DNA of 31,625 nucleotides from a virus, in IMG/VR virus record IMGVR_UViG_3300031857_000868, positions 1 through 31,625 of that record; one strand, 5' to 3'. The translations under genes were made by a program, and so were the position numbers. The notes under the pieces were generated by a model that was not told where the DNA came from, did not search any database, and was given only the letters and a program-made list of their open reading frames with translations. Shown here piece by piece: positions 441 through 26,355 of this stretch; the first letter of the stretch is position 1; each line of letters opens with the position of its first letter.

Positions 441-842
441 ATGTCTTATATTCTAACACCTTCAGGTCGAAAACAGATTGTAGCAGAATCTGTAGAACAA
501 GTCGATGAGCTTTCTAAAAAAACTCTGGCTTCATATACAAGTAAAGCCGCCTATGATATTTCGAAAACTTCTGCTGTGCACGCAAGAGCACAGGATGCAG
601 CTGCAGCTAGAAATGATGCAGCTCGTAAAGCTAGAAAAAAAATCGATTATGATAGCCCAGACCATAAGAAAGGTCGGGAGGCTCTTGCTCGTTTGAGAAA
701 GCGTCAGGTTGGTATTCAAACCGCAGTAAAGAAACTTTCGAAAGAAGACATCGACATGGATCATTTCGTAGAATACGTTATTGAAAACTTTCCAGAACTA
801 ACTGAAAAATACATTCAGGAAAACTACGAACAAAAAGATTGA
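441..842 (+). CDS. Predicted internal head/virion protein with cleavage module (133 aa)
   Basis: The start at 441 has AGAGGA upstream and is preferred over an in-frame TTG at 411. The protein is highly charged and Ala/Lys-rich, as expected of a DNA-associated core protein. Residues 13-23 contain two sites of the T4 prohead-protease type, IVAE before Ser17 and QVDE before Leu24. The following SKKTLASYTSKAA and the later GIQTAVKKLSKE recur in the 460-aa protein at 10209-11591, so this is a shared module. No enzymatic motif is seen. The role as a processed internal head or scaffold-core protein is inferred from the cleavage-like motifs and late position. Confidence 0.65.
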   Translation: MSYILTPSGRKQIVAESVEQVDELSKKTLASYTSKAAYDISKTSAVHARAQDAAAARNDAARKARKKIDYDSPDHKKGREALARLRKRQVGIQTAVKKLSKEDIDMDHFVEYVIENFPELTEKYIQENYEQKD

Positions 843-845
843 TTT

Positions 846-1457
846 GTGCTAAAGTTCAAAGAATATATCGCAGAGAGCGTTAGAGCAGGGAGTCTGTCGA
901 TTTTCGACATCGACGACACTCTGTTCCACACGACGACGCAGGTTCTGGTGAAGAAAGCTGATAAAGTCGTTGAAAAGTTAACTCCAGCTGAATTCAATGT
1001 CTACAAGCTAAAAGACGGCGAAGAGTTTGACTTTGCTCAGTTCCGTTCAGCTAAGATATTCGCTGATACAGCCAAACCTATCGAGAATGTATTCAAAACT
1101 GCTAAGAAGCTGATCAACAAGTTCTCAGTGCACCCAGATAAGCGTATCATCATTGTTACAGCTCGTGCTGATCTTGATGATAAGCAGCTGTTCCTTGATA
1201 CGTTTAAGAAGTATGGATTTGATACTAGAAAAGTTCATATCTATCGCGCTGGTAATATCAAAGCTCCTGGCGCAGAAGCTAAGAAACAAATCATTCGCGA
1301 TCAGATGAAAGGTGGAAACTATAGCATCGTTCGTATGTTCGATGATGCGAAAGCCAATCTAGACAAGTTCATCGAGCTTCACACAGAGTTTCCTAAAGTC
1401 AGCTTCGAAGCATTCCTCATCCACGAAGATGGACGAATCACAAGGTATAACGGCTAA
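846..1457 (+). CDS. HAD-superfamily phosphatase with capsid-targeting peptide
   Basis: Starts with GTG at 846, four bases after the previous stop. The first ten residues, MLKFKEYIAE followed by Ser, closely resemble the T4 IPIII capsid-targeting peptide (MKTYQEFIAE before Ala), which the prohead protease removes. The HAD domain follows at once: FDIDDTLFH at about 20-28 is motif I (DxDxT), IIIVTAR near 101-107 is motif II, and a Lys plus MFDDAKAN near 160-165 fit motifs III and IV. The acceptor could be a nucleotide, a polynucleotide 3' end or a protein. The presence of the tag implies packaging into the capsid, which is inference. Stop and next start overlap as TAATG. Confidence 0.8.
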   Translation: MLKFKEYIAESVRAGSLSIFDIDDTLFHTTTQVLVKKADKVVEKLTPAEFNVYKLKDGEEFDFAQFRSAKIFADTAKPIENVFKTAKKLINKFSVHPDKRIIIVTARADLDDKQLFLDTFKKYGFDTRKVHIYRAGNIKAPGAEAKKQIIRDQMKGGNYSIVRMFDDAKANLDKFIELHTEFPKVSFEAFLIHEDGRITRYNG

Positions 1458-2572
1458 TGTCTTTGAAACCTAAAGATATGATTGTTACAAACAAAATCGT
1501 TTCGGTCGATGACGTTACGAAACAGTTGAACACGAATATACCTAAAAAAGCAAAAGATCCTGTTAGAACTTATCTTGAGTTGTTAGTTGAACACTATGAC
1601 AATCCTACAACAAAATCTAAAGAAGAGATAAAGAAACATTACATCGCAAATAAAACCGCAATCAATGGACAGATGAGTCTCATTAAAAATGACTTTGGTG
1701 AAATTCTTGGAGGAATAGCTACAGTCAAACAAGAGTTGCTAAAGAAATTTTATTCTAAAGTTCCTTTCAAAACCAAAGGCTCATTAGAGTATCCAACAGC
1801 AGCAAACGAACCACTGAAAGATTACTCTGTTTATGTGGGTAAAGATGAATACATAATTTCTGCTAAGATTGCTGGTGCAACAAGCAACACAGTTAAGCCA
1901 CAAGACGTTATCTCTCTCATAGAAAAATCTAAAGTTATACCTCCGAAAAGAAAAAAAGAACTACAATCTACATTAGAGTACAATCTACTTAAAATTCTAC
2001 AAGAAGAAAACACTTTGCGTGGACCAGCTGCAGCACTGTCATATTTTAAAGACAACGCTCCTTCAGCAATGAAAAGTAGAATGAACAAACATATCGAAGT
2101 TAACAAGATACCATCGTACTCTCAATTCCAAAAAGAATTCGCTGATATTTCTAGCAACATTAGTGTAAGTCAGAAAACGTCAAAACCATATCGCGGAACT
2201 GCATACAAAGGCATCGTTGAATCTACGAAGTTTAAAGAATATGGAAAAACACATGGCGTCGGTAAGATAGTTAACTGGGCTGATATAGTTCTATACTTCG
2301 AGTATGTGATTCAAAACGCATCTAAACAAACTCCAAAAGCATTAGACTTCGGAGATCTATTCATCGACGCCATAACATCACAAGTTCACTATGTTAAACT
2401 TTCTATAGACTCTTCTGGTATACCTGTGTTCGAGGCATATGCTTCTGTAACGCCTCCAGGCGGAAAGAACATAAGCAATTTTGATGCAAAAGATATCTAC
2501 ATAAGAAGCAAGAGCAGTAAGTATAAAGATGGAAGATATCGCCTAAAAGATAAGATTGGTATTCAGACATGA
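1457..2572 (+). CDS. Conserved-looking phage protein of unknown function (371 aa)
   Basis: I do not recognise the family. The protein is soluble, Lys-rich (many KSK and KKEL stretches) and has no membrane segment, cysteine cluster or nucleotide-binding motif. Unlike its neighbours it has no 10-residue capsid-targeting peptide. It lies between the HAD phosphatase and the ligase-like gene with overlaps on both sides (TAATG before, ATGA after), so it is translationally coupled to them and probably works with them. The ending resembles a compact beta-rich domain (VKLSIDSSGIPVFEAYASV). Confidence 0.6.
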   Translation: MSLKPKDMIVTNKIVSVDDVTKQLNTNIPKKAKDPVRTYLELLVEHYDNPTTKSKEEIKKHYIANKTAINGQMSLIKNDFGEILGGIATVKQELLKKFYSKVPFKTKGSLEYPTAANEPLKDYSVYVGKDEYIISAKIAGATSNTVKPQDVISLIEKSKVIPPKRKKELQSTLEYNLLKILQEENTLRGPAAALSYFKDNAPSAMKSRMNKHIEVNKIPSYSQFQKEFADISSNISVSQKTSKPYRGTAYKGIVESTKFKEYGKTHGVGKIVNWADIVLYFEYVIQNASKQTPKALDFGDLFIDAITSQVHYVKLSIDSSGIPVFEAYASVTPPGGKNISNFDAKDIYIRSKSSKYKDGRYRLKDKIGIQT

Positions 2573-3801
2573 AGTCATTTCATAGTTATCTGTCGGAAGA
2601 AAAGAATGTTCACATGGAACACATTGAGGATTTGATTCTCAATGCAGGCGTAGATGGCGCAAAGCAAATCTTTTCTTTCCTTTCACAGACGCGCGACATG
2701 CTCGCAGGAAATACAACTAAGAAGATCGCTGCTACTGTAAAGTGGGATGGTGCTCCTGCTATCTTCGCTGGTGTTGATCCACGCGATGGAAAGTTTTTCG
2801 TCGCGAAGAAAGGCATTTTCAATAAGAATCCTAAAGTTTATAAAACACAAGCTGATATCGACGCTGATCTTGAAGGCGATCTAGCTGCAAAATTCAGTGT
2901 TGCTCTTCGCGAGTTTAAGAAGCTAGGAATTACGAAAGGTGTATTCCAAGGCGATCTCATGTTCACGAAGGGTGATGTTCGCACGGAAACAATCGAAGGG
3001 AATAAGTATTACACATTCCAACCAAATACAATCGTGTATGCAGTTCCTATGAATTCTGCTCTAGGTAAAACTATATCAAAAGCAAGCATCGGCGTCGTGT
3101 GGCATACAACATACGAAGGCGCTTCGTTCGAATCTATGAAAGCGTCGTTCGGAAAAGGAATCGTAGAAAAGCTGAATCAAGTGGGTACGATCTGGATGGA
3201 CGATGCTACTTATAAGGACGTCAGCGGAACAGCTACGTTCACTGCTGCTGAAACAGCAGAGTTCAATAAGATCCTTTCGCAAGCAGGAAAAATTTTACAA
3301 AGTTTACCTCGCGAAGCAGTTGATGCTTTTCATAAAGATTCAGAACTGCTACTTCGTGTCAAGACGTACAATAACAGTAAAGTTCGCGCTGGTCAAAAAA
3401 TTACAAACACAACAGCGCACGTATCTGGATTCGTTCACTACATGAACGACTACTATCAGAAAGAAGAAGACAAAAAGAAAACGCCCGCTGGTAAGGCGAG
3501 CGTTAAGGCTAAAAAGATGCAGTCGTTTGGTCCAATCATTCGAACTCCATTTTTACAGCTGAAGTTGATTTTCGATTTTATGAATCTGGTTGTTGACGCT
3601 AAGATGATGATCGTATCTAAGATGAATTCATCAGCCGCTATCAATACGTTCCTGCGCACGCGACAGGGATTGAAAGTTACTTCGCCAGAAGGTTATGTAG
3701 CAGTCGATCACTTGACTGGCGGAGCTGTAAAACTGGTAGATCGTTTGGGATTCAGCCAAGCAAACTTTAGTCCAGACATTATCAAGGGATGGGAACGATG
3801 A
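2569..3801 (+). CDS. Nucleotidyltransferase/ligase-like protein with capsid-targeting peptide
   Basis: 410 residues, starting at an ATGA overlap. It opens with MKSFHSYLSE then Glu, matching the T4 IPIII targeting peptide in length and pattern. The body has signatures of the covalent nucleotidyltransferase (polynucleotide ligase/capping) fold: VKWDG at 57-61 as a KxDG motif I, AKKG at 79-82 in the motif Ia/III zone, VFQGDLMF at 125-132 like the motif III acidic strand, and IGVVWHT at 174-180 like motif IV. QLKLIF later could supply the motif V lysines. Large phages encode such proteins without known function, so ligase activity is inference. It sits beside a phosphatase and an adenylyltransferase-type domain. 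Confidence 0.65.
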   Translation: MKSFHSYLSEEKNVHMEHIEDLILNAGVDGAKQIFSFLSQTRDMLAGNTTKKIAATVKWDGAPAIFAGVDPRDGKFFVAKKGIFNKNPKVYKTQADIDADLEGDLAAKFSVALREFKKLGITKGVFQGDLMFTKGDVRTETIEGNKYYTFQPNTIVYAVPMNSALGKTISKASIGVVWHTTYEGASFESMKASFGKGIVEKLNQVGTIWMDDATYKDVSGTATFTAAETAEFNKILSQAGKILQSLPREAVDAFHKDSELLLRVKTYNNSKVRAGQKITNTTAHVSGFVHYMNDYYQKEEDKKKTPAGKASVKAKKMQSFGPIIRTPFLQLKLIFDFMNLVVDAKMMIVSKMNSSAAINTFLRTRQGLKVTSPEGYVAVDHLTGGAVKLVDRLGFSQANFSPDIIKGWER

Positions 3802-4061
3802 AAAAGTTCTCAGAGTTTATTACAGAAGAAACATACAATCGCGAAAAGCATATAAAGAAACTAGCTAAGATGGCAAAGACTTTGGAAAACCAAATTCGTA
3901 GATCCAACTATAGTGCTAGGAACAGTAAAACTTGGCGACTCATCTATAAGTATGACGATCTAATGCAGGAAATAAAAGATCAAGACTACGAGGGTTGGAA
4001 GAAGTATTGTAAAGATAAAGACTGGAGCATATATCATACAGGTAAAGATTTTCTAGCATAA
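3798..4061 (+). CDS. Small internal head protein candidate (87 aa)
   Basis: Starts at ATG 3798, overlapping the previous stop as ATGA, with GGGA upstream; an in-frame ATG at 3789 is less likely because it would dilute the N-terminal motif. MKKFSEFITE then Glu is again a T4 IPIII-like capsid-targeting peptide with the predicted cut after residue 10. The remaining 77 residues are very basic and helical (KHIKKLAKMAKTLENQIRR) with aromatic residues at the end, consistent with a small DNA-binding core protein packed with the genome. No enzymatic motif is seen. Confidence 0.7.
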   Translation: MKKFSEFITEETYNREKHIKKLAKMAKTLENQIRRSNYSARNSKTWRLIYKYDDLMQEIKDQDYEGWKKYCKDKDWSIYHTGKDFLA

Positions 4062-4083
4062 CTGACCCCTCGTAACATAACTC

Positions 4084-4112
4084 ATTATAATGGTTGTAAA
4101 TGAAATTGTCAA
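4084..4112 (-). promoter_or_regulatory. Consensus sigma70 promoter pointing into late genes
   Basis: Read on the minus strand: TTGACA (4112-4107), 17-bp spacer, TATAAT (4089-4084), all bases consensus. The start would be near 4077, with transcription leftward, antisense to the 87-aa gene and then the ligase-like gene. No long minus-strand gene is convincing there. Confidence 0.6.
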
Positions 4113-4120
4113 GATCTTTT

Positions 4121-4128
4121 TATAAATA
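4121..4128 (+). promoter_or_regulatory. T4-type late promoter box TATAAATA
   Basis: Exact TATAAATA, 77 bases before the ATG of the 1225-aa polyprotein, in the only sizeable gap of the left-hand late region. It would start transcription near 4134, inside the base of the following hairpin. Confidence 0.75.
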
Positions 4129-4129
4129 A

Positions 4130-4163
4130 AGGGAGCAGAAAGCTACGAGCAATCCTGCTCCCT
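4130..4163. other. 9-bp hairpin at the 5' end of the late transcript
   Basis: AGGGAGCAG (4130-4138) pairs perfectly with CTGCTCCCT (4155-4163) around a 16-nt loop. It lies just downstream of the late start site, so it may protect the mRNA 5' end. Read on the minus strand it is followed by a T-rich stretch and could be a terminator there. Both readings are inference. Confidence 0.55.
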
Positions 4164-4204
4164 AATTGTTTGCGGTCAGGCCAAGGCAATCCCGCGAGGA
4201 GAAA

Positions 4205-7200
4205 ATGAAGAGCGTCGTGTTCACCTTCGGGCGTATGAATCCGCCCACTACAGGTCATCAGCTGCTTGTAAACAAGCTGGTCGCATATGCTCGCTCACAC
4301 AGCGCGACTCCTCGCATCTATCTGTCCCATTCAGTCGGACCTAAAGATCCCCTACAATACGATAAGAAAATAGCGTTCGCTCGAGCAGCATTTGGTGCGC
4401 TCGTTAAGAAGTCGAACGCTCGCACTTTCATTGAAGTTCTCAAACAGCTCGATAAAGAAGGATTCAAGAACGTAACGATGTTCGTTGGATCTGATCGTGT
4501 TGTTCAGTTCAATAAGTTGCTGCAGCAATACAACGGTAAAGAATACAACTTCGACAAGATTGAAGTTAAGTCTGCTGGCGAACGTGATCCAGACGCAGAT
4601 GACGTATCTGGAATGTCAGCAAGTAAAATGCGCGCACTAGCCAAAGACGATAAAGTCACAGAGTTTCTTCGTGGCGCTCCAAACACACTAAAAGCAGCAC
4701 AAGCTAAGAACATGTTTAAAGCTGTGCGCAAAGCATTACTAGGAGAAGACGTAATGGAATACGGACACAACGAACGTTTTCTTGAGTTCATTTTTGAATC
4801 CGATATGAAAGAAGATGATATGAACGATCTTCCTTCTGACGGAGAAATCTCGAAGCACTTTGATTCGCTTGGTGCTGATGATCTTGAGCTTGATGACGCC
4901 GACGCAATGATGCTTGATATTCTGCTTGGTGATGAAGAAGATGATAAGGAAGATATCGAAGAAGCTAAAGTTCTTTCTATTCAGCAGCGTCAGAAACTCG
5001 CACAGCGCATGAAGTCAATGAGCAAGCGTCTTGCTCGTCTTCGTCAGATCAAAGCAAAACAAATGCCAGCTGCTCAGCGTCTTCGCATGCGCGCGCGAAA
5101 GGCTGCTCTTATGATTCTTCGTAAGCGCGCAACAGGTAGAAAAAATCTTGAATACAGTTCGCTGTCAAAATCACAGCGTATCGCAGTAGATACAGCTCTC
5201 GTGCAACGTTTTGGCAAAAATCTCAACACACTCGTAGGTCGTTTGGCTACAAGATTGATGCCACGAGTTCGCAAGCACGCGCAGGAATACATGAAGAAAT
5301 CAAGAGAAGAAACCAAAGAGTCATTCGTTGCTGAGGCAAAAGAAAAAGAAGGATCAGCTAAAGACGTAGCTCAGGATAAGATCCAAGCTGCAAAGCGTGG
5401 TATGTCTGTTTCAGATTGGGAAAAGACAAAGGCTGATGCTGCTCACGATTCTCCACTGAACATCGATCCGACCAGGCTGGATACGCTGTCGATTGATCCT
5501 ACGAAAAATGATCGTGAAGCACCAAATCCTAAGCAAGGTCATTTGCATCTGAACAGAAAACTTTCACACTACGCCCGTTCTGTTGATGAAGGTCGTAAAG
5601 GAACTGTTGATCAGCAAGATTCTGGCGATACTAATATCATGTATCAGCTGCGTAAAGTTCTCATTTCTCGCGGTAATCACGAAGTAGAGTTTGCCGATAA
5701 GTCGAAGCATAAGATTTCTGTTTCAGACGCAAACAAGATGCTTGATAAGTTTGCTGCTACTCGTATGCCAGCAGATAAGCATGAGATGACAATCCAAGCT
5801 GGTAAGTCGCTTTCTTCATTCAAGAACGTTCTTGCTCATGGAATCGAAAAGCAAAAGAAAAAGATTTCACTTGGCGGAAAGAACTTCAAAGAGTTTTATC
5901 TCGGTGTAGGTCGTTCACGCACTGTATCAGCATATGATAACGACGAGCCGCCTGGAGTTCGCAGAGTAGCCGAAGCTGCTAAGGATGAAGATCGTCCAGA
6001 AAATCCTAATCGTTCGCGTCCACTTTCACAGAAGCTCGATCTGCTGCTGCGCCTTGGTCTTTCTGATGCTGAAGATTTACAGAAGTATCGCCGTGCGCTG
6101 CGTTCGTCAAAGAAAGCTGCACTTCAGTCACCAGAGATGCGCGAAAAGCTCGCTGATCTGCTCGACAAACTGATTGATCTTACAACACAAGATCCAGCGA
6201 CATATTCACGTGTTCGCTATCGTGTTCAAACTAAAGAAGCGTATGCGCTTCTCAATAAAGCCGAAAAGTCTGGTGTTGACGTAGATATCATCTTCGAAGT
6301 GTTTGCTCGTGGTTACGAACAGAACGAAGATATCAACGAAGCGTTTAATCGCGTCAACTCATTCATTGCTGGCGGAAAGGCTGCTGAAATGGATAAGGAT
6401 CTTTCTGAAAAGCGCGGACTCTGGGATAACATTCATGCGAAGCGTGAAAGAATCAAAGCTGGTTCGGGTGAGCGTATGCGCAAGCCAGGATCTAAAGGAG
6501 CACCAACTGACGCTGCGTTAAAAGCGTCACAAACTGAAGACAAAGATCCATGCTGGTCAGATTATAAGCAAGTTGGCATGAAGATGAAGAACGGTCGTCA
6601 GGTTCCTAACTGTGTTCCGAAAGAAGAAGCTGTTTCTGAAGTTGTTGTATCTAGAAAAATGACGCCAGCAGAAAGAAAAGCGCACGCTAGTTATGTTGCT
6701 CAACATATCAGAAAAGTTGCTGCGGCAACTCCTGATGATAAACCTGCTAAAAAAACAATGAAGGATATTTCTAAAATTTCTCATAGCGATTACACACATC
6801 AACCAAGTAAGATGGCTAGCGTCGGTTATGATAAGCATGAATCGACACAGCAGCAGAAAGCAGCTGGCGCTGCTCTTGCTACACAGCGTGGAGAATATGC
6901 TGGCGGTAAGAAGGGTGGAGCTATCAATCGTATGTCTCTTATGAAGACAAAGGATCTAGTTAAGCTCGCTCGCGGCAAAAAGGTGAAGGAAGAAGTTGTT
7001 GATGAAGTCAATCGTCGTGTTGACGTGAAGCTCGTAAAAGTTAAGCAGCCTGATGGTAAGATTGTTTATCGCAAGGAACATCCAAAGACAGCAGTTCAGA
7101 TGGAAGCAACACATCCACATCCTGTTGTTCAAAAAACACATCCGCATCCTACTGGAAAAGTTCCGTATGCTGGACAAACGAACAAGGAACTTCGTGATGC

Positions 7201-7882
7201 GCTTCCTAAGAAAGTGAAAGCTGCCAGCGAAGCATATACAGGATCGGAGCCAGCATCAAACAATACAGCTGATCCAGCGAATCGTTTCGTAGGAACAAAT
7301 TCCATTCGTCAAAATTATGCGAACGTAACTCCTGGTCAAGGATCGGCTGCTGGTGAAATTGCTGTGGCGAACTTCGCTCCAGAAAAAGTTGACTACACTT
7401 CTTCTATGTCTAAGAAAACACATGCAGAAGTAGATCAGTCGAAAGACAATCTCTCTAAGAAACACTTCAGCGATATCCGCAAGGCGCTTGGTGGTATTCG
7501 TGAGTCAAATGAATTAAACGAATCATTCTCGGCAGGTTTTGAACTTGCTCCATTCGCGCGCGACTACGGAATGAAAGTTCAATCAGCTTTCGAACATCAC
7601 CCTGAAGTTCAAGAACAGCTTGATGCAATGGAAGCTACATATAAGGGAAAGACAGTTCCTTTGAATAAACCTATGAAGGGTGATGTCAAAAAATCTAAGG
7701 TTTACGTTGATCCAGATGGTGACGGTAAAGCTAAGAAAGTAAACTTCGGTGATAAGAAGCTAAGTATTAAAAAAGGAATTCCTGCTCGCAAGAAATCATA
7801 TTGCGCTCGATCTAGTGGGCAAGGTAATTTGACAGATAAATCGAGTGCTAACTATTGGTCCCGTAGGGCATGGGATTGTTAA
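4205..7882 (+). CDS. Giant virion polyprotein with N-terminal nucleotidyltransferase domain (1225 aa)
   Basis: ATG 4205 has GAGGAG seven bases upstream, better than the first in-frame ATG at 4166. Residues 1-190 form a cytidylyltransferase/NMN-adenylyltransferase-type domain: FGRMNPPTTGH at 8-18 is the (H/N)xGH-type nucleotide site and SGMSASKMR at 135-143 the SxSxxR-type motif. The rest is low-complexity, Lys/Ala/Glu-rich, with prohead-protease-like sites after 253 (DIEE), 377 (FVAE), 590 (RVAE), 812 (AVSE), 934 (VVDE) and 1106 (ELNE). Familiar phage head modules follow: RGLWDNIHAKRER near 737, a CW...NCV segment at 783-804, and a C-terminal KKSYCARS...WSRRAWDC block with Cys1200 and Cys1225. 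Probably cut into several internal proteins during head maturation. The enzyme domain has no targeting tag of its own. Confidence 0.75.
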   Translation: MKSVVFTFGRMNPPTTGHQLLVNKLVAYARSHSATPRIYLSHSVGPKDPLQYDKKIAFARAAFGALVKKSNARTFIEVLKQLDKEGFKNVTMFVGSDRVVQFNKLLQQYNGKEYNFDKIEVKSAGERDPDADDVSGMSASKMRALAKDDKVTEFLRGAPNTLKAAQAKNMFKAVRKALLGEDVMEYGHNERFLEFIFESDMKEDDMNDLPSDGEISKHFDSLGADDLELDDADAMMLDILLGDEEDDKEDIEEAKVLSIQQRQKLAQRMKSMSKRLARLRQIKAKQMPAAQRLRMRARKAALMILRKRATGRKNLEYSSLSKSQRIAVDTALVQRFGKNLNTLVGRLATRLMPRVRKHAQEYMKKSREETKESFVAEAKEKEGSAKDVAQDKIQAAKRGMSVSDWEKTKADAAHDSPLNIDPTRLDTLSIDPTKNDREAPNPKQGHLHLNRKLSHYARSVDEGRKGTVDQQDSGDTNIMYQLRKVLISRGNHEVEFADKSKHKISVSDANKMLDKFAATRMPADKHEMTIQAGKSLSSFKNVLAHGIEKQKKKISLGGKNFKEFYLGVGRSRTVSAYDNDEPPGVRRVAEAAKDEDRPENPNRSRPLSQKLDLLLRLGLSDAEDLQKYRRALRSSKKAALQSPEMREKLADLLDKLIDLTTQDPATYSRVRYRVQTKEAYALLNKAEKSGVDVDIIFEVFARGYEQNEDINEAFNRVNSFIAGGKAAEMDKDLSEKRGLWDNIHAKRERIKAGSGERMRKPGSKGAPTDAALKASQTEDKDPCWSDYKQVGMKMKNGRQVPNCVPKEEAVSEVVVSRKMTPAERKAHASYVAQHIRKVAAATPDDKPAKKTMKDISKISHSDYTHQPSKMASVGYDKHESTQQQKAAGAALATQRGEYAGGKKGGAINRMSLMKTKDLVKLARGKKVKEEVVDEVNRRVDVKLVKVKQPDGKIVYRKEHPKTAVQMEATHPHPVVQKTHPHPTGKVPYAGQTNKELRDALPKKVKAASEAYTGSEPASNNTADPANRFVGTNSIRQNYANVTPGQGSAAGEIAVANFAPEKVDYTSSMSKKTHAEVDQSKDNLSKKHFSDIRKALGGIRESNELNESFSAGFELAPFARDYGMKVQSAFEHHPEVQEQLDAMEATYKGKTVPLNKPMKGDVKKSKVYVDPDGDGKAKKVNFGDKKLSIKKGIPARKKSYCARSSGQGNLTDKSSANYWSRRAWDC

Positions 7883-7894
7883 GGAGAAACTGAA

Positions 7895-8182
7895 ATGAAT
7901 GATTTATACATTTGGGCTGGTATTGCTGCTGCTGTTGTAGTTCTTGCTTGGTTGCTGTGGCCACAGAAAACTATGACTGAAGCTCTTCAAGAAGCAAAGG
8001 CTGAAGAAAAGGCTGAAGAAAAGGCTGTTACTCCAGTTGCTGCTGTCAACGATCAGATCACAGACGCAGTTACTCAGACTGCTCCAGTCAAGAAGACGCG
8101 TGCTAAGAAGCCAGCTGCTCCAAAGAAGACAGCTGCTAAAAAGGCACCAGCCAAAAAGGCTGTAAGGAAGGGAAGAAAGTAA
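7895..8182 (+). CDS. Small membrane protein with histone-H1-like tail (95 aa)
   Basis: AAGGAG precedes ATG 7895. One N-terminal membrane helix (residues 5-22, ending in LAWLLW) is followed by an acidic Glu/Ala/Lys repeat (AEEKAEEKA) and a strongly basic tail of KKTAAKKAPAKK type, like histone H1 C-termini. This predicts a membrane anchor with a cytoplasmic nucleic-acid-binding tail. It sits one base before the Dps gene and in the late operon. The tail composition can arise by low-complexity drift, so DNA binding is inference. Confidence 0.7.
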   Translation: MNDLYIWAGIAAAVVVLAWLLWPQKTMTEALQEAKAEEKAEEKAVTPVAAVNDQITDAVTQTAPVKKTRAKKPAAPKKTAAKKAPAKKAVRKGRK

Positions 8183-8183
8183 G

Positions 8184-8624
8184 ATGGAACAGCTCGTAGA
8201 GGCACTCAAGAAGGCGCAAGCTACTAGCTTTGCGTTTTATCTGAAAGCTCATAACTATCACTGGAACGTGGAAGGTGCGAACTTCTCAGAGTATCATGCA
8301 TTCTTGGGTGATCTCTACGCTGAAGTTTGGGGTGCGGTTGATGCTATCGCAGAACACATCCGCACCCTAGACGCCTATGTTCCTGGATCGTTCATTCGTT
8401 TCCAGCAACTATCTTCGATTGAAGATGAACAGAGCGTTCCTACTGGTCGTGCTATGATGGCAAGATTACTTGCTGACAATCAGCGCGTCATCGGTGATCT
8501 CATGGCAGCTCATCGCGAAGCTGAGATGCTTGGTAAGCGCGGAATCGTAAACTTCATCGAAGATCGTATTGATAAGCATGACAAACATGGTTGGATGCTA
8601 CGCTCATTTACTAAAGGCGACTAA
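8184..8624 (+). CDS. dps: Dps-family ferritin-like DNA-protection protein
   Basis: 146 residues, the short end of the Dps family. Dps forms 12-subunit shells that oxidise and store iron and shield DNA from peroxide damage. The ferroxidase ligands fall at the family spacing: His26 (in HWNVEG), His38, Asp53 and Glu57, matching E. coli His51, His63, Asp78 and Glu82. The ending DKHGWMLRSF is typical. AAGGAAGGG precedes the start, and the stop overlaps the next ATG as TAATG. A basic N-terminal tail is absent, so DNA binding may depend on partners such as the upstream basic-tailed protein. Its place among late genes suggests action during assembly or packaging in the virion, which is inference. Confidence 0.88.
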   Translation: MEQLVEALKKAQATSFAFYLKAHNYHWNVEGANFSEYHAFLGDLYAEVWGAVDAIAEHIRTLDAYVPGSFIRFQQLSSIEDEQSVPTGRAMMARLLADNQRVIGDLMAAHREAEMLGKRGIVNFIEDRIDKHDKHGWMLRSFTKGD

Positions 8625-9940
8625 TGGCTCAGTTTAGAACCGATACAAGCAAATACTTGAACAACTGCAACACGATCTTCGAGGTCGTGATGCTTGCAGA
8701 TCCTTATGGCAATCGTATCGGTCCTGCTAACCCATCAGGCACAGCCGTTGATGCGTTTGGTCGTGCTCGCGTATCTATGCCGCTTACACTATTCGATTCG
8801 TCGCATAGATATCGCGATAACGGATTGTGGAGTACATCTAACACAGCTGGCACGACTTACGCGCACACCTTTCACGAAGGTCTTGTAAAGCTCAACGTAA
8901 GAACTGGAGCGAATCAAGAAATCATTCGCGAAACAACAAAAGTGTTTTCGTATCAGCCAGGTAAGTCGCTACAAATCATGAACACGTTTGTGATGAATCC
9001 AGCTAAAACTGGATTGCGTCAACGTATTGGATACTTTGGTGCAAACAACGGCGTTTATCTTGAGCAGTCGAACAACGATATCTACTTTGTCGAAAGAAGC
9101 TGGAACACTGGTGCTCTAGCGGAAACTCGTGTAAGTCAGGCTAACTGGAACATTGATACTCTGTTGGGTGATGTTGATTCAAGTCCTTCACACAGAACGC
9201 TTGATCTGACGAAAGCTCAAATCTTATTCTCTGACATCGAATGGTTGGGTGTAGGGTCGATCAGATGCGGATTCGTTATTGATGGTCAGCTCATTCACTG
9301 TCATTCGTTCCATCATGCTAATTTCATAACGTCAACTTATATTTCAACAGGATCACTTCCTGTTCGCTATGAGATTAAGAATACTGGCGTTACGGCTAGC
9401 AACAGCACGTTGAAGCAGATATGCACGACTGTTATTTCCGAAGGCGGTTACGAACTTCGTGGCGCTCAGCAAGCTATTGAAACCGCGATTGGTGCACCGC
9501 GTGATCTTACTACGGCTGGAACATACTATCCAGTGATTTCGCTAAGACTCAAAGCTACACCTAATCGACTAGATGCTATCGTCATTCTTACTGCGCTTTC
9601 GCTACTAGCCATTACGAACAACGCGAATTATAACTGGAAAGTAGTAACAGGCGGAACAACGACTGGTGGTAGTTGGGTAGATGCTGGAATCAACTCGGCT
9701 GTCGAATACAACATTTCAGGAACAAGTTTCGCTGGTGGTCGTGCTATGGCTAGCGGATTCTTGAGCGGATCTAATCAAGGATCAACACCGACTGACATTC
9801 TGAAAGAAGCATTGTTCAAGTTTCAGCTAGAGCGTAATGGTCTTACGTTAGCGCCATTTGAACTTACATTGGTGGCCGCATCTGATACTAACGGTGCGGA
9901 TGTCTATGCTTCTATGGATTGGGAAGAAATTTCAAGATAA
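8624..9940 (+). CDS. Virion structural protein (438 aa)
   Basis: A Thr/Ser/Asn/Gly-rich, beta-type protein of the kind common in T4-like marine phages as a conserved structural protein. It has a recognisable opening with RTDTSKYLNN, a middle MADPYGN-like segment, and repeated beta hairpins. There is no signal peptide, membrane helix or catalytic motif. It begins at the TAATG overlap with dps. The composition suits a head-decoration, neck or baseplate-associated protein; I cannot tell which. Confidence 0.65.
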   Translation: MAQFRTDTSKYLNNCNTIFEVVMLADPYGNRIGPANPSGTAVDAFGRARVSMPLTLFDSSHRYRDNGLWSTSNTAGTTYAHTFHEGLVKLNVRTGANQEIIRETTKVFSYQPGKSLQIMNTFVMNPAKTGLRQRIGYFGANNGVYLEQSNNDIYFVERSWNTGALAETRVSQANWNIDTLLGDVDSSPSHRTLDLTKAQILFSDIEWLGVGSIRCGFVIDGQLIHCHSFHHANFITSTYISTGSLPVRYEIKNTGVTASNSTLKQICTTVISEGGYELRGAQQAIETAIGAPRDLTTAGTYYPVISLRLKATPNRLDAIVILTALSLLAITNNANYNWKVVTGGTTTGGSWVDAGINSAVEYNISGTSFAGGRAMASGFLSGSNQGSTPTDILKEALFKFQLERNGLTLAPFELTLVAASDTNGADVYASMDWEEISR

Positions 9941-9949
9941 GGAAAACAA

Positions 9950-10207
9950 ATGTCGTATCGTAGCTTAGAAAATACAATCCGCGAAACAGCCTGCGGTTGC
10001 ACTAAAGTAAAAGAAAACAATGAAGTTGATGACGAAGGCAATATGGCAAAGGGCGAGCTTCGCATGATCGCTTCGCGCGCGCAGGAAATCATTTCTATGC
10101 TCGACGATAACACACAGCTTGAGGGATGGGTTCAAAGCAAGATCACCAAAGCTGAAGATTATATCAATTCAGTTTACGATTACATGAAGGGTCAGAAAGG
10201 AAACTAA
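9950..10207 (+). CDS. Conserved small phage protein (85 aa)
   Basis: Start has AAGGAAA upstream. The pattern GNMAKGELRMI...DNTQLEGWVQSKITKAEDYINSV is widespread in T4-like and other myophages as a small helical protein of unknown function. DDNTQLEGWVQ at about 51-61 and the Tyr-rich C-terminus are its hallmarks. It is followed after one base by the EF-hand polyprotein. A virion or assembly role is likely from position only. Confidence 0.7.
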   Translation: MSYRSLENTIRETACGCTKVKENNEVDDEGNMAKGELRMIASRAQEIISMLDDNTQLEGWVQSKITKAEDYINSVYDYMKGQKGN

Positions 10208-10208
10208 C

Positions 10209-11591
10209 ATGTCAGTAGATCCAAAGAAGTTTGGTCTTACGCCATCTCTTGTAGAAACCGTAAAGGAAGCTCTCAAGGGCGATCAGCATAAGATTGATGC
10301 TAACAAGAATGGTAAGATCGACGCGCAGGATTTTAAGAAACTGCGCGGAGAAGAATTAAAAGGCGATCAGCATAAGATTGATAAGAACAAGAATGGTAAA
10401 ATCGACGCTCACGATTTCAAACTTCTTCGTAAGAAGAATGATACGAAATTAGTTGCTAAGCCTCAATACGATAAAATGCGCCCTGCTTTTAAAGAAGAAG
10501 TTGAGCAGATTGATGAAAAGGTAAAAACAACACACGAAAACCCTCTTGTCACAGTTCATGATAAAGATGGTCTTCATACTCACGCCAATCTTTCTACAGC
10601 AAATAAGATTTTTAACACTAAAGTTAAACATACTGATGTGCATGCTGGACCAGTAAAGACAAAAGATGGTCATGAAACAAAAAATAATTTAACATTTGCT
10701 ATCTCAAAGCATCATGCGTCTGCAATGAAAGAAGAAGTTGAGCAGGTCGATGAAATTTCGAAAGCGACTCTTGGTTCATATGTAACAAAGGCGGCTGGTT
10801 CCGCAGCTACGCATACTGGCGCAGCAGCTGCTTATGGTGGTTCTAGCAAGAGCCCAGATCCAAAGAAGATGGCTCAGCATCAAGCTATTGCAACAAAGCG
10901 TACGACTGGTATTCAGAAAGCAGTTGGCAAGCTGACTAAGGAAGAAGCTGAACAAACTGATGAAGCAATGTCGCCAAAGCAAAAGGCACATTCTAATCGT
11001 CTGAAGAACAATCCTGGACGTAAAGGTAGCGTGTTTGATCCATCATCAAACTTCGATGCACCTAACCACAAGGTTGATGTTGTAGTTTCTAAAGATAATA
11101 AAAAAGAAACTAAAAATGATGTCGTGCAAGCTAAAGATAAGCACGATGCTATGTTTAAAATTCAGATGAAGTATCATAAGATGGGCTATAAAGTCCATGA
11201 TACTAAACACAAAGGTACAGTGAAAGAAGAAACAGAAATCACTGAAGCCGAAGACGCAGTAGCAAAGCAGATTGCTGCTAAGAAGGATGCGATGCAGAAG
11301 CAGATTCAGCAGAAGATCGCTCAGAAGCAGATGTCAGCAATGCAAGCTAAGGCTAACAAGCGTCTGTCGAGCATCAATGCTAGCAGCCATGATGATGAAG
11401 AAATGAAGAAGGGTGGTAAGGAAAAGATTGAAATCAATCCACCACTCAAGGAAGCTGAAGAGCTACCTAAGGCTGTAGTTAAGAAGGGACACGAAATCGC
11501 TAAGTCGCTGATCAAGCACCGCGCGAAGGTTCGTGAACCATATGCTGTCGGTATGGCAACAGCTAAGAAATCAGCTGGTATCAAAGACTAA
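10209..11591 (+). CDS. EF-hand-bearing polyprotein of the virion (460 aa)
   Basis: Two tandem calcium-loop repeats open the protein: DANKNGKIDAQD at 30-41 and DKNKNGKIDAHD at 58-69, EF-hand/dockerin type with Asp at position 12. Then come four VEQ(V/I)DE-like or ITE sites: QIDE ending at 103, QVDE at 182, QTDE at 252 and EITE at 346 before Ala, all resembling prohead-protease cuts. Residues 175-245 repeat the module of the 133-aa protein at 441. The remainder is Lys/Gln-rich and helical (QKQIQQKIAQKQ at 364-375). No enzyme domain is visible. Likely a core polyprotein processed into several pieces, with the calcium sites perhaps stabilising one of them. Confidence 0.7.
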   Translation: MSVDPKKFGLTPSLVETVKEALKGDQHKIDANKNGKIDAQDFKKLRGEELKGDQHKIDKNKNGKIDAHDFKLLRKKNDTKLVAKPQYDKMRPAFKEEVEQIDEKVKTTHENPLVTVHDKDGLHTHANLSTANKIFNTKVKHTDVHAGPVKTKDGHETKNNLTFAISKHHASAMKEEVEQVDEISKATLGSYVTKAAGSAATHTGAAAAYGGSSKSPDPKKMAQHQAIATKRTTGIQKAVGKLTKEEAEQTDEAMSPKQKAHSNRLKNNPGRKGSVFDPSSNFDAPNHKVDVVVSKDNKKETKNDVVQAKDKHDAMFKIQMKYHKMGYKVHDTKHKGTVKEETEITEAEDAVAKQIAAKKDAMQKQIQQKIAQKQMSAMQAKANKRLSSINASSHDDEEMKKGGKEKIEINPPLKEAEELPKAVVKKGHEIAKSLIKHRAKVREPYAVGMATAKKSAGIKD

Positions 11592-11620
11592 ATAGGATAA
11601 CTAGGAAAAGGAGTGCAGAT

Positions 11621-11971
11621 ATGGCACAATGGACAATGACAGATAACGCTAACGGCGCGCCAAGCTGGGCTAACACAACGCTCAATCTTGCTAAGAATAG
11701 AAACGAGCTGTTCGGTAACACGACAATCGGCACTTTTCGCGCTAATATCGCATACGGAACATTTGGTGTAAGCTCAGGCGAAATGACTTACGCTAATACA
11801 GCAGGTACAGAAGCTGATAACATCCCGCACGCTGGATGGGTTCTTCGCAAACAAGGTCAAGGTGGTCGTGCTGGTCGCGTTCACTACGAAGTTCTCGTTG
11901 CAGCTTCTTCTATCGTCAACGATGCTGGCGGTGGTGGTGAAGCTCTCGATGATGGAATTCTCCCAGAATAA
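11621..11971 (+). CDS. Conserved virion protein (116 aa)
   Basis: AAAAGGAG lies nine bases before ATG. The HAGWVLRKQGQGGRAGRVHYE segment, described here by its core HAGWVLRK and GGRAGRVHYE, is a known hallmark of small structural proteins in cyanophages and relatives. Gly/Ala-rich, no membrane helix. ACTAAATAGGAT just upstream at 11587-11598 carries six of eight bases of the late box and might be a weak late promoter. Exact position in the particle unknown. Confidence 0.65.
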   Translation: MAQWTMTDNANGAPSWANTTLNLAKNRNELFGNTTIGTFRANIAYGTFGVSSGEMTYANTAGTEADNIPHAGWVLRKQGQGGRAGRVHYEVLVAASSIVNDAGGGGEALDDGILPE

Positions 11972-11989
11972 TAGATTTGGAGTCGCTAG

Positions 11990-12370
11990 ATGGCTGACAA
12001 GAAAGTATCACAGCTTACAGCATTGACGACCACAGCGGCTCCAGATCTGCTGATGATTGTCGATGATCCGAACGGAACACCAGTATCGAAGAAGATCACA
12101 GTAAAGAGCTTCTTCGGTTCTGTTCCTTCTAATACTGTATTCAGCGCAAACGTAACTGTATCTGGTAACAGAGTACAGCTTGCGTCAAACGTAAACATCA
12201 CAAAAACGCTTACAGCCAACACAGTCAAAATCACGTTTGGTACTACTCCAGGATCAAACAATGCGACTTCTGTTGGTATGGCTGTTGGTGAAATGCGTTT
12301 CACGAATACTCATTTGTATATCGCAGTGAATGCGACAACAATCAAGCGCGTAGCATTGAGCACATTCTGA
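11990..12370 (+). CDS. Virion protein, fibre-like beta-structure (126 aa)
   Basis: The start SQLTALTTTAAPDLLMIVDD is the opening typical of phage fibre or head-decoration proteins; it is followed by Thr/Val/Asn alternation (NVTVSGNRVQLASNVNI) that suggests a beta-helix or fibrous trimer. No enzymatic residues. Ends in a TGATG overlap with the holin candidate, so it is the last structural gene before the lysis block. Confidence 0.6.
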   Translation: MADKKVSQLTALTTTAAPDLLMIVDDPNGTPVSKKITVKSFFGSVPSNTVFSANVTVSGNRVQLASNVNITKTLTANTVKITFGTTPGSNNATSVGMAVGEMRFTNTHLYIAVNATTIKRVALSTF

Positions 12371-12705
12371 TGTCGATTGAAGCAGCAGGATCATACGTCG
12401 CAGCTAAGTCTGCATCAGCAGCTGGTGGTTTGCTTGGCGGATTGACTATGTTTGCGTTCATGAAACCAGCAACAATTTTAGATGCCACTATTCGTGGTGG
12501 CATCTGCACAGGCTCCGCAATTATATTTGCTCCGATTCTTTGTGAATACATTAATACTGAAATTACAGTTGAGCATCTAGTAGCAGCTGGAGCAGTTATC
12601 GGATTTTTAGCATGGGGCGTGTTGTCGATGACAGCACGCTTTTTCATTAAGGCAGAAGCGACCAACAAGGATATCGTGGAGGCCGCTAAGGAAATTAAAA
12701 AGTGA
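12370..12705 (+). CDS. Holin candidate (111 aa, three membrane segments)
   Basis: Three hydrophobic segments at about 15-33, 42-60 and 68-92, the first Gly/Ala-rich, and a charged C-terminus (KDIVEAAKEIKK). Size, topology and charge fit a class I-like holin that opens the inner membrane at lysis. It lies upstream of two spanin-like genes, which supports this. It could also be an unrelated small membrane protein, as there is no sequence-specific holin motif. Confidence 0.5.
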   Translation: MSIEAAGSYVAAKSASAAGGLLGGLTMFAFMKPATILDATIRGGICTGSAIIFAPILCEYINTEITVEHLVAAGAVIGFLAWGVLSMTARFFIKAEATNKDIVEAAKEIKK

Positions 12706-12706
12706 A

Positions 12707-13096
12707 ATGAAGGGTAAGTTGGACGATAACAATTTTTTTCTTTATGCTGCACATCATTATTTGAATCCATGTGTTGATGAGCAAGAGTTCCTAGATGATT
12801 TGAACAGAATCAAAAATCTTCGTAGACTTTTTGGTCGCTATGAAAAACACGGAGAGCTCAAAGAACGATTGATCATAAACCACTTGATGGTTCTATACAA
12901 TGTGTTTGAGCATAAGGCTTTGACGCGGATGCTTGCGTTTAAGTTGTACGATCAACTTCACATTCTTAAACCTTTTCTTATGTTATTGAACTACTGGCCC
13001 GATCTTATAGAAAACATTGGTTCTGATAATTACACGATTAGATCTAACGAAGTCGTTATGGATATGCGAGTAATCGACGTTCTGAGGAAAATCTGA
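12707..13096 (+). CDS. Conserved T4-like phage protein (129 aa)
   Basis: The pattern HHYLNPCVDEQEFLDDLNRIKNLRRLFGRY (core NPCVDEQEF and RRLFGRYEKHGELKERLI) with NHLMVLYNVF is a widespread conserved hypothetical in T4-like phages (DUF7207-like). All-alpha, soluble. No catalytic motif. TGATG overlap with the next gene. Confidence 0.65.
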   Translation: MKGKLDDNNFFLYAAHHYLNPCVDEQEFLDDLNRIKNLRRLFGRYEKHGELKERLIINHLMVLYNVFEHKALTRMLAFKLYDQLHILKPFLMLLNYWPDLIENIGSDNYTIRSNEVVMDMRVIDVLRKI

Positions 13097-13533
13097 TGCG
13101 TAATCTTAACGAAGACGAAGGCGGTCCTCCCGCTAATCACGCTGGTCCAGCTACAAGCACATCTGATGTTCACTGGAGCAAGCGTCAACCTCGCATTGGT
13201 GCTAAAGGTAAACTCAAGAAGTATGGTCAGCCCATATTATTCAAAGCTATCATGCGCAGAAAAAGCGTCAATGAACAGCTTCAGAATCCTCCAATGAAAA
13301 AAGTTTATTATAAAATACTAAAGAAGAAAGTTCCTGCGGTGAGCAGAACAAGCGCATCAGGTGGTGGTAGTGATGGATCCAGTGAACAAGTCCAACGCGA
13401 GCATATTGTTAAAACAGACGGTGGATTCCGCCTTGTCTCGAAGAAAACAGGAAAAAACCTCGGAACGTATCCTTCGCGCGCGGGCGCAGAGAGAAGAGAG
13501 CGTCAAGTCCAGTTCTTCAAACATAAAGGATAA
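13096..13533 (+). CDS. Basic conserved phage protein (145 aa)
   Basis: N-terminal half is Pro/Gly/Lys-rich and likely disordered. The C-terminal 40 residues, with IVKTDGGFRLVSKKTGKNLG and ERQVQFFKH, form a small conserved domain found at the end of several phage proteins. Very basic, so perhaps nucleic-acid-binding. The end overlaps no gene; the spanin-like gene starts five bases later. Confidence 0.6.
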   Translation: MRNLNEDEGGPPANHAGPATSTSDVHWSKRQPRIGAKGKLKKYGQPILFKAIMRRKSVNEQLQNPPMKKVYYKILKKKVPAVSRTSASGGGSDGSSEQVQREHIVKTDGGFRLVSKKTGKNLGTYPSRAGAERRERQVQFFKHKG

Positions 13534-21542: not shown

Positions 21543-22252
21543 TGAAACTCTTTGCTTCATGTGACCCTACTTATCTTAATCTGCATGCACCTGCGCTGGT
21601 AGCTTCAGCTGCTCGCGCGGGAAATAATCTTCATCTTCATGTTATCAATGCGAATGGTCCTGAAGTAGAGTTTCTGCATTATCTTTCTAGTAAGTGGGAA
21701 TCGCTGACAGACTCTTCTTTCACGTTTTCGTGGAAACATCAATACACGTTTCATCAAGACTCCGAACAACAGCGGACGATATTTGCTTGCGATCGCTTCG
21801 TAACTATAGTTGAAGCGATGGAGCGTTTTCCTAGTGAAGATTGGTTGATTATCGACACAGACTGTCTGATTATGAAGCACATCGAAAAGCCAGATGATGA
21901 TCAGATTGGTTTGTTTCTTCGCGAACCGCTTCCTGGAACAGTTGGTTGGGAAAATCAAGGATCACGCGTTGCAGCTGGCGTAGTCTACTATTCACATGAA
22001 GCATTGCCTTTTGCTCGTAAAGTCATGTATCGTATCAAGCACGGCCCAAACGCATGGTTCCTCGATCAGATAGCACTAAATGAAACGTATCAAGCAGAAC
22101 TGAGCAATTATCGTTTTCATTACTATGATGCTCAGTTTATGGATTGGGAGTTCATCGAAGGAACTACGATCTGGACGGGTAAGGGTCCGCGCAAGTATGA
22201 CAACCCAACATACTTGACAAAGAAGAACGAATTTGATAGGATGATCCGATGA
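21542..22252 (+). CDS. Glycosyltransferase-like protein
   Basis: MKLFASCDPTYLNLHAPAL opens a nucleotide-diphospho-sugar-transferase fold; WLIIDTDCLIM near 100-110 carries a DxD-type metal site and NAWFLDQIALN later is a typical acceptor-side segment. Shares the plan of family 8 but is divergent from the preceding gene. Weak promoter-like TTGACA/TAGGAT at 22214-22242 lies at its end. TAATG overlap at the start. Confidence 0.65.
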   Translation: MKLFASCDPTYLNLHAPALVASAARAGNNLHLHVINANGPEVEFLHYLSSKWESLTDSSFTFSWKHQYTFHQDSEQQRTIFACDRFVTIVEAMERFPSEDWLIIDTDCLIMKHIEKPDDDQIGLFLREPLPGTVGWENQGSRVAAGVVYYSHEALPFARKVMYRIKHGPNAWFLDQIALNETYQAELSNYRFHYYDAQFMDWEFIEGTTIWTGKGPRKYDNPTYLTKKNEFDRMIR

Positions 22253-22500
22253 CTAAGATTATTGAACGACCAGAATCTATAACACATGCGCTTGAGTTTC
22301 TATTTCATTACATCAAAGATGAAAAAGAAGCAGAGAATGTAAGAAAGCTAATTGGCGATAAGAAAGTTGTGCAAGTAATGCGCGGCATCGACCCACAAAC
22401 ATTTCAGCCAATTCTATACTTCGCTATCCCCGAAGAAGGTAAGATATTCTTTGAATGGATGAAGTTTGCAGCTCCAATGACACTATGGACGTTAGAATGA
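22249..22500 (+). CDS. Small protein of unknown function (83 aa)
   Basis: No recognised family. It is soluble, alpha/beta, with a hydrophobic ending (FFEWMKFAAPMTLWTLE). Coupled by ATGA overlaps to glycosyltransferase and capsule-type genes on both sides, so it probably belongs to the glycan cassette. Nothing further can be said. Confidence 0.5.
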   Translation: MTKIIERPESITHALEFLFHYIKDEKEAENVRKLIGDKKVVQVMRGIDPQTFQPILYFAIPEEGKIFFEWMKFAAPMTLWTLE

Positions 22501-23453
22501 AAGTAAAAGTTCTATTCCCACGCCTTGATGTTATGTTCAAGGAAGGCCCAGTTCCCGAAGCTCGCGGTGCTATTCCTGAGATTCGTATTCCTTGGGTTTC
22601 TGTTGCTAATCGTATTCAACATGCACATCGTATGAAGGGTGACGACGTAGAAATCATTGAGAAGCCTCTCTGGCAGTTCACGACAGACTTCGCGGAATCG
22701 CTTGATGCAGATATCATCTACGTTCCGCATAAGTCAAGCGACACATTCCCTGTTCGCGATAAGATTGTTCGTTACTATATGCAGTCTGTTTTTCCGTGGC
22801 AGTTCTATATCGACTCAAAAGGTTTTGCTGGTGGAGCTTCAGCGTATCCGTTTCTCATAGACAAGAATCGCGATGTTCCACATGGAAGTTTCTACTCTCA
22901 AATGCAAGCTCGTGCTGCTCTTGGTGAAAGCAAGTTCGCTCAGCCTGCTAGTAAAAAACTCGATCTACCGAATGATTTCGTGTTTTTTCCGTGTCAGATT
23001 CCGCACGATGAAACGATCAAGTATCATTCAAGCGTGACTGTTCCCGAAGCACTCGAAGCTACATGTAGGGCTACACAAACGCTAAATATCCCACTGCTTG
23101 TAAAAGGTCATCCAGTAAATCCTGGAAGCATGGCTCCTCTTCGTGAGCTAACGACTAAATACAAGCACGTCAAATGGATCGACGATGTTTCGATCCACGA
23201 TGTTATCCCTCACGCGCGAGCAGTCGTAGTCGTGAACTCTGGAACTGGTATGGAGACGCTACTACATAAGCGTCCTGTTGTCACTTTCGGAAGATGTGAA
23301 TATGATTGTGTGAGTAATAGAGCTACGACTGATAATATCGTCGATATCCTATGGGATCCTAAATTCGACGAAAAAGCTGTACGAGCATTTTTCGAGTCGT
23401 GGTATGAATGGACCTACGACACAAGAAGCAGTAAATCTTTTGAACGACTTTAG
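22497..23453 (+). CDS. Capsule/Kdo-transferase-like glycosyltransferase
   Basis: 318 residues from ATG 22497; an in-frame start at 22455 is unlikely as it lies deep in the previous gene. The C-terminal half has the capsule-synthesis (KpsC/KpsS) pattern: VKGHPVNPG, then VVVNSGTGMETLLHKRPVVT and FGRCEYD. That family adds Kdo or similar acidic sugars to lipid-linked acceptors. The N-terminal half is more divergent. With the other glycosyltransferases and the LpxH-like gene it points to modification of host surface glycan. Confidence 0.7.
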   Translation: MKVKVLFPRLDVMFKEGPVPEARGAIPEIRIPWVSVANRIQHAHRMKGDDVEIIEKPLWQFTTDFAESLDADIIYVPHKSSDTFPVRDKIVRYYMQSVFPWQFYIDSKGFAGGASAYPFLIDKNRDVPHGSFYSQMQARAALGESKFAQPASKKLDLPNDFVFFPCQIPHDETIKYHSSVTVPEALEATCRATQTLNIPLLVKGHPVNPGSMAPLRELTTKYKHVKWIDDVSIHDVIPHARAVVVVNSGTGMETLLHKRPVVTFGRCEYDCVSNRATTDNIVDILWDPKFDEKAVRAFFESWYEWTYDTRSSKSFERL

Positions 23454-23837: not shown

Positions 23838-23912
23838 GCGGGTATAACTCAGGGGTAGAGTGTCAGCCTTCCAAGCTGTTCGTCGCAGGTTCGAATCCTG
23901 TTGCCCGCTCCA
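23838..23912 (+). tRNA. tRNA-Gly (TCC)
   Basis: Acceptor GCGGGTA/TGCCCGC with encoded CCA. Anticodon loop CTTCCAA reads GGA. It begins nine bases after the speD stop, so both probably share a transcript. Confidence 0.95.
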
Positions 23913-23938
23913 ACTTTCGCGACTGGCTAGAAATAGCT

Positions 23939-24016
23939 GTGGCGTTGGTCATCTGTAACTGGATGGCTTTGATAGCAGGAATAAGCCTGCTCGTTTGGTA
24001 TGGTGTTTTCAACTAA
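23939..24016 (+). CDS. Possible very small membrane protein (25 aa)
   Basis: From GTG 23939 the frame is one hydrophobic helix (MALIAGISLLVWYGVF). The same frame is open upstream only because it passes through tRNA-Gly. No Shine-Dalgarno is visible, so this may be noise. Confidence 0.25.
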   Translation: MALVICNWMALIAGISLLVWYGVFN

Positions 24017-24025
24017 GGAGTAATT

Positions 24026-24559: not shown

Positions 24560-24561
24560 TG

Positions 24562-24593: not shown

Positions 24594-24600
24594 GTTTCTA

Positions 24601-24646: not shown

Positions 24647-24679
24647 TTTCCTATATAACGTTGTCTTTCATGTGCTGAC

Positions 24680-26314: not shown

Positions 26315-26355
26315 CGATTACTTTTTTGTAACGAAAATTGATACGAAAAAGGACC

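Follow-up and report, generated by a model that had tools for sequence, protein, structure and literature searches.

The window analysed here, a 31.6-kb fragment from IMG/VR (31,625 nucleotides; record IMGVR_UViG_3300031857_000868), derives from a T4-like (Kyanoviridae-like) phage, and its gene order agrees with that of the Kyanoviridae Melnitz, HTVC008M, S-ShM2 and S-SM1. In the window and in these phages, a block of largely unnamed genes flanks the cytidylyltransferase gene, ahead of the gp61 primase and nrdA genes. No capsid, scaffold or protease gene was found in the 31.6-kb fragment. The features of the block are collected in Table 1, in which a slash marks a predicted cut. A sequence-only reading had placed its 133-, 1225- and 460-aa proteins at the correct positions and had taken them for polyproteins that a prohead protease may release as many internal head peptides.

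Table 1. Genes, sites and modules of the block, in window coordinates.
Feature	Position	Strand	Remarks
133-aa protein	441..842	+	leader of 23 aa with ESVEQVDE at its end, followed by a single helical-hairpin module, LSKxTLxSYxxKA...GIQ.AV.KL
ESVEQVDE site of 133-aa protein, residues 16-23	486..509	+	predicted cut after codon 507-509
203-aa HAD phosphatase, PNK-phosphatase-like, phrog_415	846..1457	+	N-terminal tag MLKFKEYIAE/S
410-aa DUF6267 protein	2569..3801	+	RNA/DNA-ligase-type nucleotidyltransferase fold (model), KWDG motif; N-terminal tag MKSFHSYLSE/E
90-aa protein	3789..4061, start at 3798	+	tag MKKFSEFITE/E
1225-aa mosaic protein	4205..7882	+	NMNAT/cytidylyltransferase domain (1-185), then several small modules
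RVNSF module of 1225-aa protein (677-737)	6233..6415	+	tagged single-protein counterpart in relative L235
E735 of DLSE/KRGLWDNIHAK, 1225-aa protein	6407..6409	+	module border common to tagged 90-aa protein of L180
GLWDNIHAK module of 1225-aa protein (736-779)	6410..6541	+	
C-terminal module of 1225-aa protein (1143-1223)	7631..7873	+	tagged single counterparts in L160, L164 (MKSFGCFIDE/)
85-aa protein, stand-alone module	9950..10207	+	tagged counterpart in L125 (MKSFVDYVAE/); fused into L070 polyprotein
460-aa mosaic protein	10209..11591	+	two EF-hand-like motifs (10269-10433), then modules parted by EEVEQIDE, EEVEQVDE, EEAEQTDE, ETEITE (the last ending at residue 346)
EEVEQIDE site of 460-aa protein, residues 96-103	10494..10517	+	
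EEVEQVDE site (175-182) and LSKxTL helical-hairpin module, 460-aa protein residues 175-244	10731..10940	+	module shared with 133-aa protein
EEAEQTDE site of 460-aa protein, residues 245-252	10941..10964	+	

The 133- and 460-aa proteins contain one and three VEQxDE-type sites, respectively, against 0.00 expected from composition shuffles, and they share a longer module (50% identity, E=8e-9), so that both of these elements of the sequence-only reading are borne out. The 1225-aa protein contains no VEQ(V/I)DE, and the 133-aa protein has IVAE. The FVAE and VVDE sites are present, both in the 1225-aa protein (E377 and E934), but as patterns they occur at chance level. Generic [LIV]xE sites are likewise not enriched in that protein (17 against 12.8 expected, p=0.13), and their count was therefore dropped as evidence; the narrower pattern E[ES]..[VILT][DAST]E is enriched (3 against 0.16, p=0.001). 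A charge-hydropathy plot puts each of the three proteins on its disordered side, although "disordered" suits their linkers and not their modules, because the shared module is predicted to be a helical hairpin (core pLDDT about 90).

When the 460-aa protein was compared with annotated phages by BLAST, the only match was P-TIM68, a complete isolate genome that has one VEQxDE-type site; relatives, found mostly in IMG/VR, were gathered from that collection. Among 55 non-redundant relatives, the spacing E..E...E was counted 161 times, versus 18.6 in shuffles, with its open positions settling on V, Q, V/I/L and D to give the typical form (K)E-E/S-V-E-Q-[V/I/L]-D-E. At 115 such sites, P3 is V63/I35/L16/T1 (Val in 55%, I or L in 51/115), P2 is mostly D, and P1′ is variable, with Ala the most frequent residue outside the LSK module.

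The sites mark borders between modules that assort independently, as judged from 112 VEQxDE junctions in 55 non-redundant proteins, at which it was asked whether both flanks of a site co-occur as homologues. Among 77 pairs whose upstream flanks are homologous, only 3 (4%) were homologous downstream as well, and in-register homology of the flanks was found in 9/321 cases (2.8%) at sites versus 163/727 (22.4%) at nearby non-site positions, in junctions that are not fully independent and with some of the tests designed after examples were known. Seven sites, for example, split a 1035-aa protein of the relative G002 into pieces of 270, 200, 165, 103, 66, 60, 82 and 89 aa, several of which reappear in G001 in changed order and spread over two different proteins. 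The module that most frequently follows a site, LSxxTLxSYxxKA...G...A..KL, is predicted to form a helical hairpin, with the site falling in the low-confidence region preceding it; a fold search with this simple hairpin gave no PDB match below E=0.4.

The 203-, 410- and 90-aa proteins begin with a 10-residue tag (MLKFKEYIAE, MKSFHSYLSE and MKKFSEFITE) that has F, Y or L at position 4, F or Y at 7, I, L or V at 8 and E at 10. A six-frame scan across the window gave no further start of this kind, and the 133-, 1225- and 460-aa proteins, which begin with MSYILTPSGRKQIVAE, MKSVVFTFGR and MSVDPKKFGL, lack the canonical tag. T4 IPII and IPIII begin with MKTYQEFIAE in the T4 record, and in IPIII targeting to the core of the head depends on residues 4 and 7, and processing on residues 8 and 10 (PMC9026906). 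The tag is carried by 67/72 homologues of the DUF6267 protein, those of S-SM1 and S-ShM2 being without it; the least variable of its first ten alignment columns are 1, 4, 7, 8 and 10, E10 is invariant, and the AlphaFold2 pLDDT of residues 1-15 is below 50. A scan of 2355 starts preceded by a ribosome site yielded 146 tags, in 53 sequence clusters, versus 1 in shuffled N-termini. No prior report of this tag in cyanophages was found, the literature search yielding only a T4 review.

The same modules exist both as small tagged single proteins and within mosaics, and, by comparison of these sequences, the tag and the site are interchangeable. The 90-aa protein of L180 (MLTFKEYIEE/KRGLWDNIHAK) and the 1225-aa protein of the window (DLSE/KRGLWDNIHAK) share 82% identity beginning at the residue that follows the Glu. 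[ILVM]xE ends 0-4 aa before the GLWxNIHAKR module in 13/13 non-redundant contexts and before the AWQRKEGK module in 8/8, that is, in 21/21 contexts when both are pooled, whether the preceding element is a tag or a VEQxDE-type site; the background is 9.4%. Thus AWQRKEGK follows KEFISE/TA or KEFLDE/SA in tagged proteins, and EIEQVDE/ATP or EVELDE/ASP in mosaics. Both elements occur in a single chain of L070, which opens with the tag MKTFKDHIAE, has five VEQxDE sites and joins modules of the separate 133-, 460-, 85- and 1225-aa proteins of the window. The sequence-only reading had included neither the T4-IP-like tags of the neighbouring genes nor the LSE/KRGLW border at residue 735.

Homologues of proteins of the block have been found in virions: the cytidylyltransferase in S-SM1 (PMC3037559) and S-CREM2 (PMC10665884), and the same enzyme, listed as NMNAT, in S-SCSM1 (PMC9602691). 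Its N-terminus is MKKFSAFLNEA in S-SM1 and MKNFSSFLTEA in S-CREM2, and among the non-shell virion proteins of S-CREM2 the tag is also present on the SAM hydrolase gp6, gp13 and the kinase gp14, with a tag-like stretch at a more internal position in the "Cas9" protein gp12. A K-containing form of the tag pattern, set after some of these N-termini were known, matches 4/219 S-CREM2 proteins, all 4 of which belong to the 52 proteins listed for the virion (p=0.003); looser patterns gave 13 matches, 7 of them in the virion (p=0.015), and were set aside as weaker. The virion proteins gp155, gp156 and gp160 have no tag, which counts against a universal tag; gp160 has modules in common with the P-TIM68 protein that bears VEKIDE (1e-22 and 5e-13). 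S-CREM2, the sole phage whose virion list was compared gene by gene, lacks the exact VEQ site. A gp21-type protease is present in the relatives G001, G002, G003, S-CREM2 and Melnitz, and in G003 a module protein adjoins gp21 and gp22. The propeptide sites of the major capsid proteins (MCPs) of relatives, placed by analogy with T4, are FLSE, FMTE, FLTE and LLTE (F/L-L/M-S/T-E), and the T4 gp21 cleavage rule is L/I-x-E.

Taken together, these observations suggest, with a probability of roughly two in three, that positions 441-11591 are an internal head (core) cargo cassette of tagged single proteins and mosaic polyproteins cut by a gp21-type protease. In such a cassette, the first 10 residues of the single cargo proteins would be a T4-type capsid targeting sequence (CTS) ending in E10, and the 133-, 1225- and 460-aa proteins would be module mosaics parted by hydrophobic-x-Glu sites. 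Tagged proteins and mosaics would enter the prohead core, and at head maturation the gp21-type prohead protease probably cleaves after the Glu of each site, so that tags are removed and modules freed; the freed modules would stay with the packaged DNA, and some may be injected. Packaging of the cassette proteins in the head is likely and has good support, and their cutting at VEQxDE by the prohead protease is probable on the pattern of sites and tags. The proposal that the three mosaics are processed internal head proteins is backed strongly and independently by the module borders, by single counterparts with T4-IP-like tags and by tagged homologues in published virions (PMC3037559, PMC10665884, PMC9602691), whereas the "many head peptides" would mostly be modules of 50-200 aa and not short peptides.

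The main doubt concerns specificity, as Val at P3 departs from the T4 rule, and this Val and the usual Asp at P2 both differ from the MCP sites. Val at P3 may be tolerated, because it occurs in 3/39 DUF6267 tags. The same difference from the MCP sites, together with a conserved stretch of about 8 residues (E-E-V-E-Q-V-D-E), longer than the known requirement of T4 gp21, would fit an uncut acidic linker or docking motif, perhaps one that binds the scaffold core, with the proteins entering the head whole. We regard such a linker as unlikely, since the simple tag sites KEFISE/ and KEYIEE/ stand in for VEQxDE before the same module, and the variable P1′ residue fits a cut recognised on the unprimed side. 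Less probable still is that the site serves chiefly as a DNA-level recombination joint for module shuffling, with a secondary meaning in the protein. Codon identity at repeated sites does exceed the expectation from codon usage in G002 (0.76 vs 0.46), L021 (0.83 vs 0.50) and L067 (0.85 vs 0.63), and recent duplication or recombination therefore contributes in these phages, but the window shows no such excess (0.79 vs 0.76). Moreover, many borders have only [ILVM]xE in common amid unrelated sequence, which is too short for recombination, and the Glu is invariably retained there.

The detections in virions could also be contamination, the block then encoding unpackaged cytoplasmic takeover or regulatory proteins. 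Several of the proteins are enzymes, and the authors of the S-SCSM1 study concede that NMNAT may have persisted in suspension after CsCl purification (PMC9602691). Independent detection in S-SM1, S-CREM2 and S-SCSM1, the T4-IP-like tag on the detected proteins and the adjacency of the module gene to gp21/gp22 in G003 nevertheless make this explanation highly improbable.

A head cargo cassette resembles several known systems in part. The CTS of T4 IPI-III, which is cut by gp21, is likewise a 10-residue tag with F/Y at 4 and 7, I/L at 8 and E at 10, shared by unrelated bodies in a T4-type genome; the T4 proteins, however, are small single proteins directed against restriction enzymes, whereas here the tag stands at the front of tens of families, enzymes among them, and the modules behind it recur, joined in series, in polyprotein-like mosaics. 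The internal head proteins of phiKZ and SPN3US are cut by gp175 and gp245, respectively, at S/A-x-E or A-x-E (PMC10052503, PMC9026906), in long propeptides with several cut places; the post-Glu cuts of minimal specificity are similar to those predicted here from sequence, but the known ones mostly trim propeptides, while the present sites part recurrent, independently assorting modules. The virion NMNAT/cytidylyltransferase of cyanophages (T4-GC190) is a homologue of the N-terminal domain (1-185) of the 1225-aa protein, in which this domain is joined to many modules and has no N-terminal tag; the cited virion papers draw no link between this enzyme and a targeting tag.

The enzymes of the cassette may indicate what is carried. 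The 410-aa DUF6267 protein, a family for which no paper was found, looks like a tagged RNA-ligase-type enzyme according to its predicted fold. RNA ligases are the best structural matches of its model (Z up to 8.3, 3.8 Å over 184 aa), nearly all VIA-align rows are ligases, and, as in T4 RNA ligases and the RNA-ligase nucleotidyltransferase superfamily, a K-x-D-G motif is invariant (K58, D60 and G61 in 39 sequences). It has a packaging-type tag, which T4 ligases are not known to have, and it gives no significant match by sequence search against PDB or by Foldseek (E not below 0.18). Kinases scored as Zeta_toxin/AAA_33 are among the other tagged relatives, and one mosaic polyprotein contains a HicA toxin domain. 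The combination of a HAD phosphatase, the putatively ligase-type DUF6267 protein and tagged kinases invites a reading in terms of packaged RNA repair. Quite tentatively, marine and freshwater T4-like phages might preload their heads with an interchangeable kit that, once injected, would shield or reprogramme the RNA of the host before the onset of phage transcription. The CTS-like tag would then import a set resembling RNA "heal and seal" enzymes (HAD phosphatase, a PNK-like kinase in some relatives, DUF6267 and NMNAT), and the mosaic polyproteins would supply many small effector modules per chain, to be freed by the prohead protease.

That T-even internal proteins share one tag on diverse bodies is already known. 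As far as our searches tell, three things are new: how widely the tag is spread in Kyanoviridae-like phages, the chains built as mosaics, and the finding that tag and VEQxDE-type site are equivalent before the same module. Cyanophage virion proteomes list many unexplained internal proteins, and, if the present interpretation is true, the tag together with the border site would predict head cargo genes and cut positions from sequence in very abundant ocean viruses and may be a source of new packaging tags. DUF6267, a family of unknown function, would gain a likely fold, on the strength of its model, and a likely location. The principle of the T4 internal proteins would thereby widen beyond a handful of small anti-restriction proteins to take in enzymes and chains of many shuffled modules.

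The putative capsid-targeting tag stands at the N-terminus of the virion-detected SAM hydrolase, gp13 and kinase of S-CREM2, encoded in a second cargo cluster apart from the cytidylyltransferase, and residues 18-25 of the S-CREM2 protein annotated as 'Cas9' form a tag-like stretch. The RimK-like ATP-grasp protein of Melnitz may be further head cargo, because one possible reading of its start is MTQKFSQFITEE.

In a VEQxDE polyprotein, a chain of modules separated by Glu-ending sites, one module is a HicA toxin domain, immediately preceded by EEVEQLEE. The G003 protein adjoining the prohead protease gp21 combines two modules of the KEQIDELSKTTLASY type with numerous HRDGDKPA repeats, with which the neighbouring gp22 also begins. 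Within the window's cassette of proposed cargo genes, a Dps/ferritin-like protein lacks the tag; the window's 95-aa protein is hydrophobic at its N-terminal end, and its tail, rich in Lys, Ala and Pro, resembles histone H1.

Coordinates of the features discussed
Sequence	Positions	Feature
Window	2569-3801	DUF6267 protein
Window	7895-8182	95-aa protein
Window	8184-8624	Dps/ferritin-like (PF00210, 2.7e-24)
Window	23838-31625	16 tRNA genes, many grouped at the fragment's right end
Melnitz (L003)	82-1131	RimK-like protein
S-CREM2 (L023)	3837-13331	gp6-gp15
G003 (L046)	21561-22814	417-aa protein (contig ORF)
L063	6280-8301	Polyprotein; HicA at residues 284-336 (PF07927, 1.2e-12)
L228	1863-2705	P-loop kinase
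L005	11291-11953	P-loop kinase

The DUF6267 protein has a tagged, disordered N-terminus and an invariant KxDG motif, and its structure models as an RNA/DNA-ligase-type nucleotidyltransferase. P-loop kinase genes, one of them tagged (MLTFDQFVNE), lie close to DUF6267 at L228 and L005. Together with the HAD phosphatase, the kinases and the ligase-fold protein would provide a complete nucleic-acid repair set.
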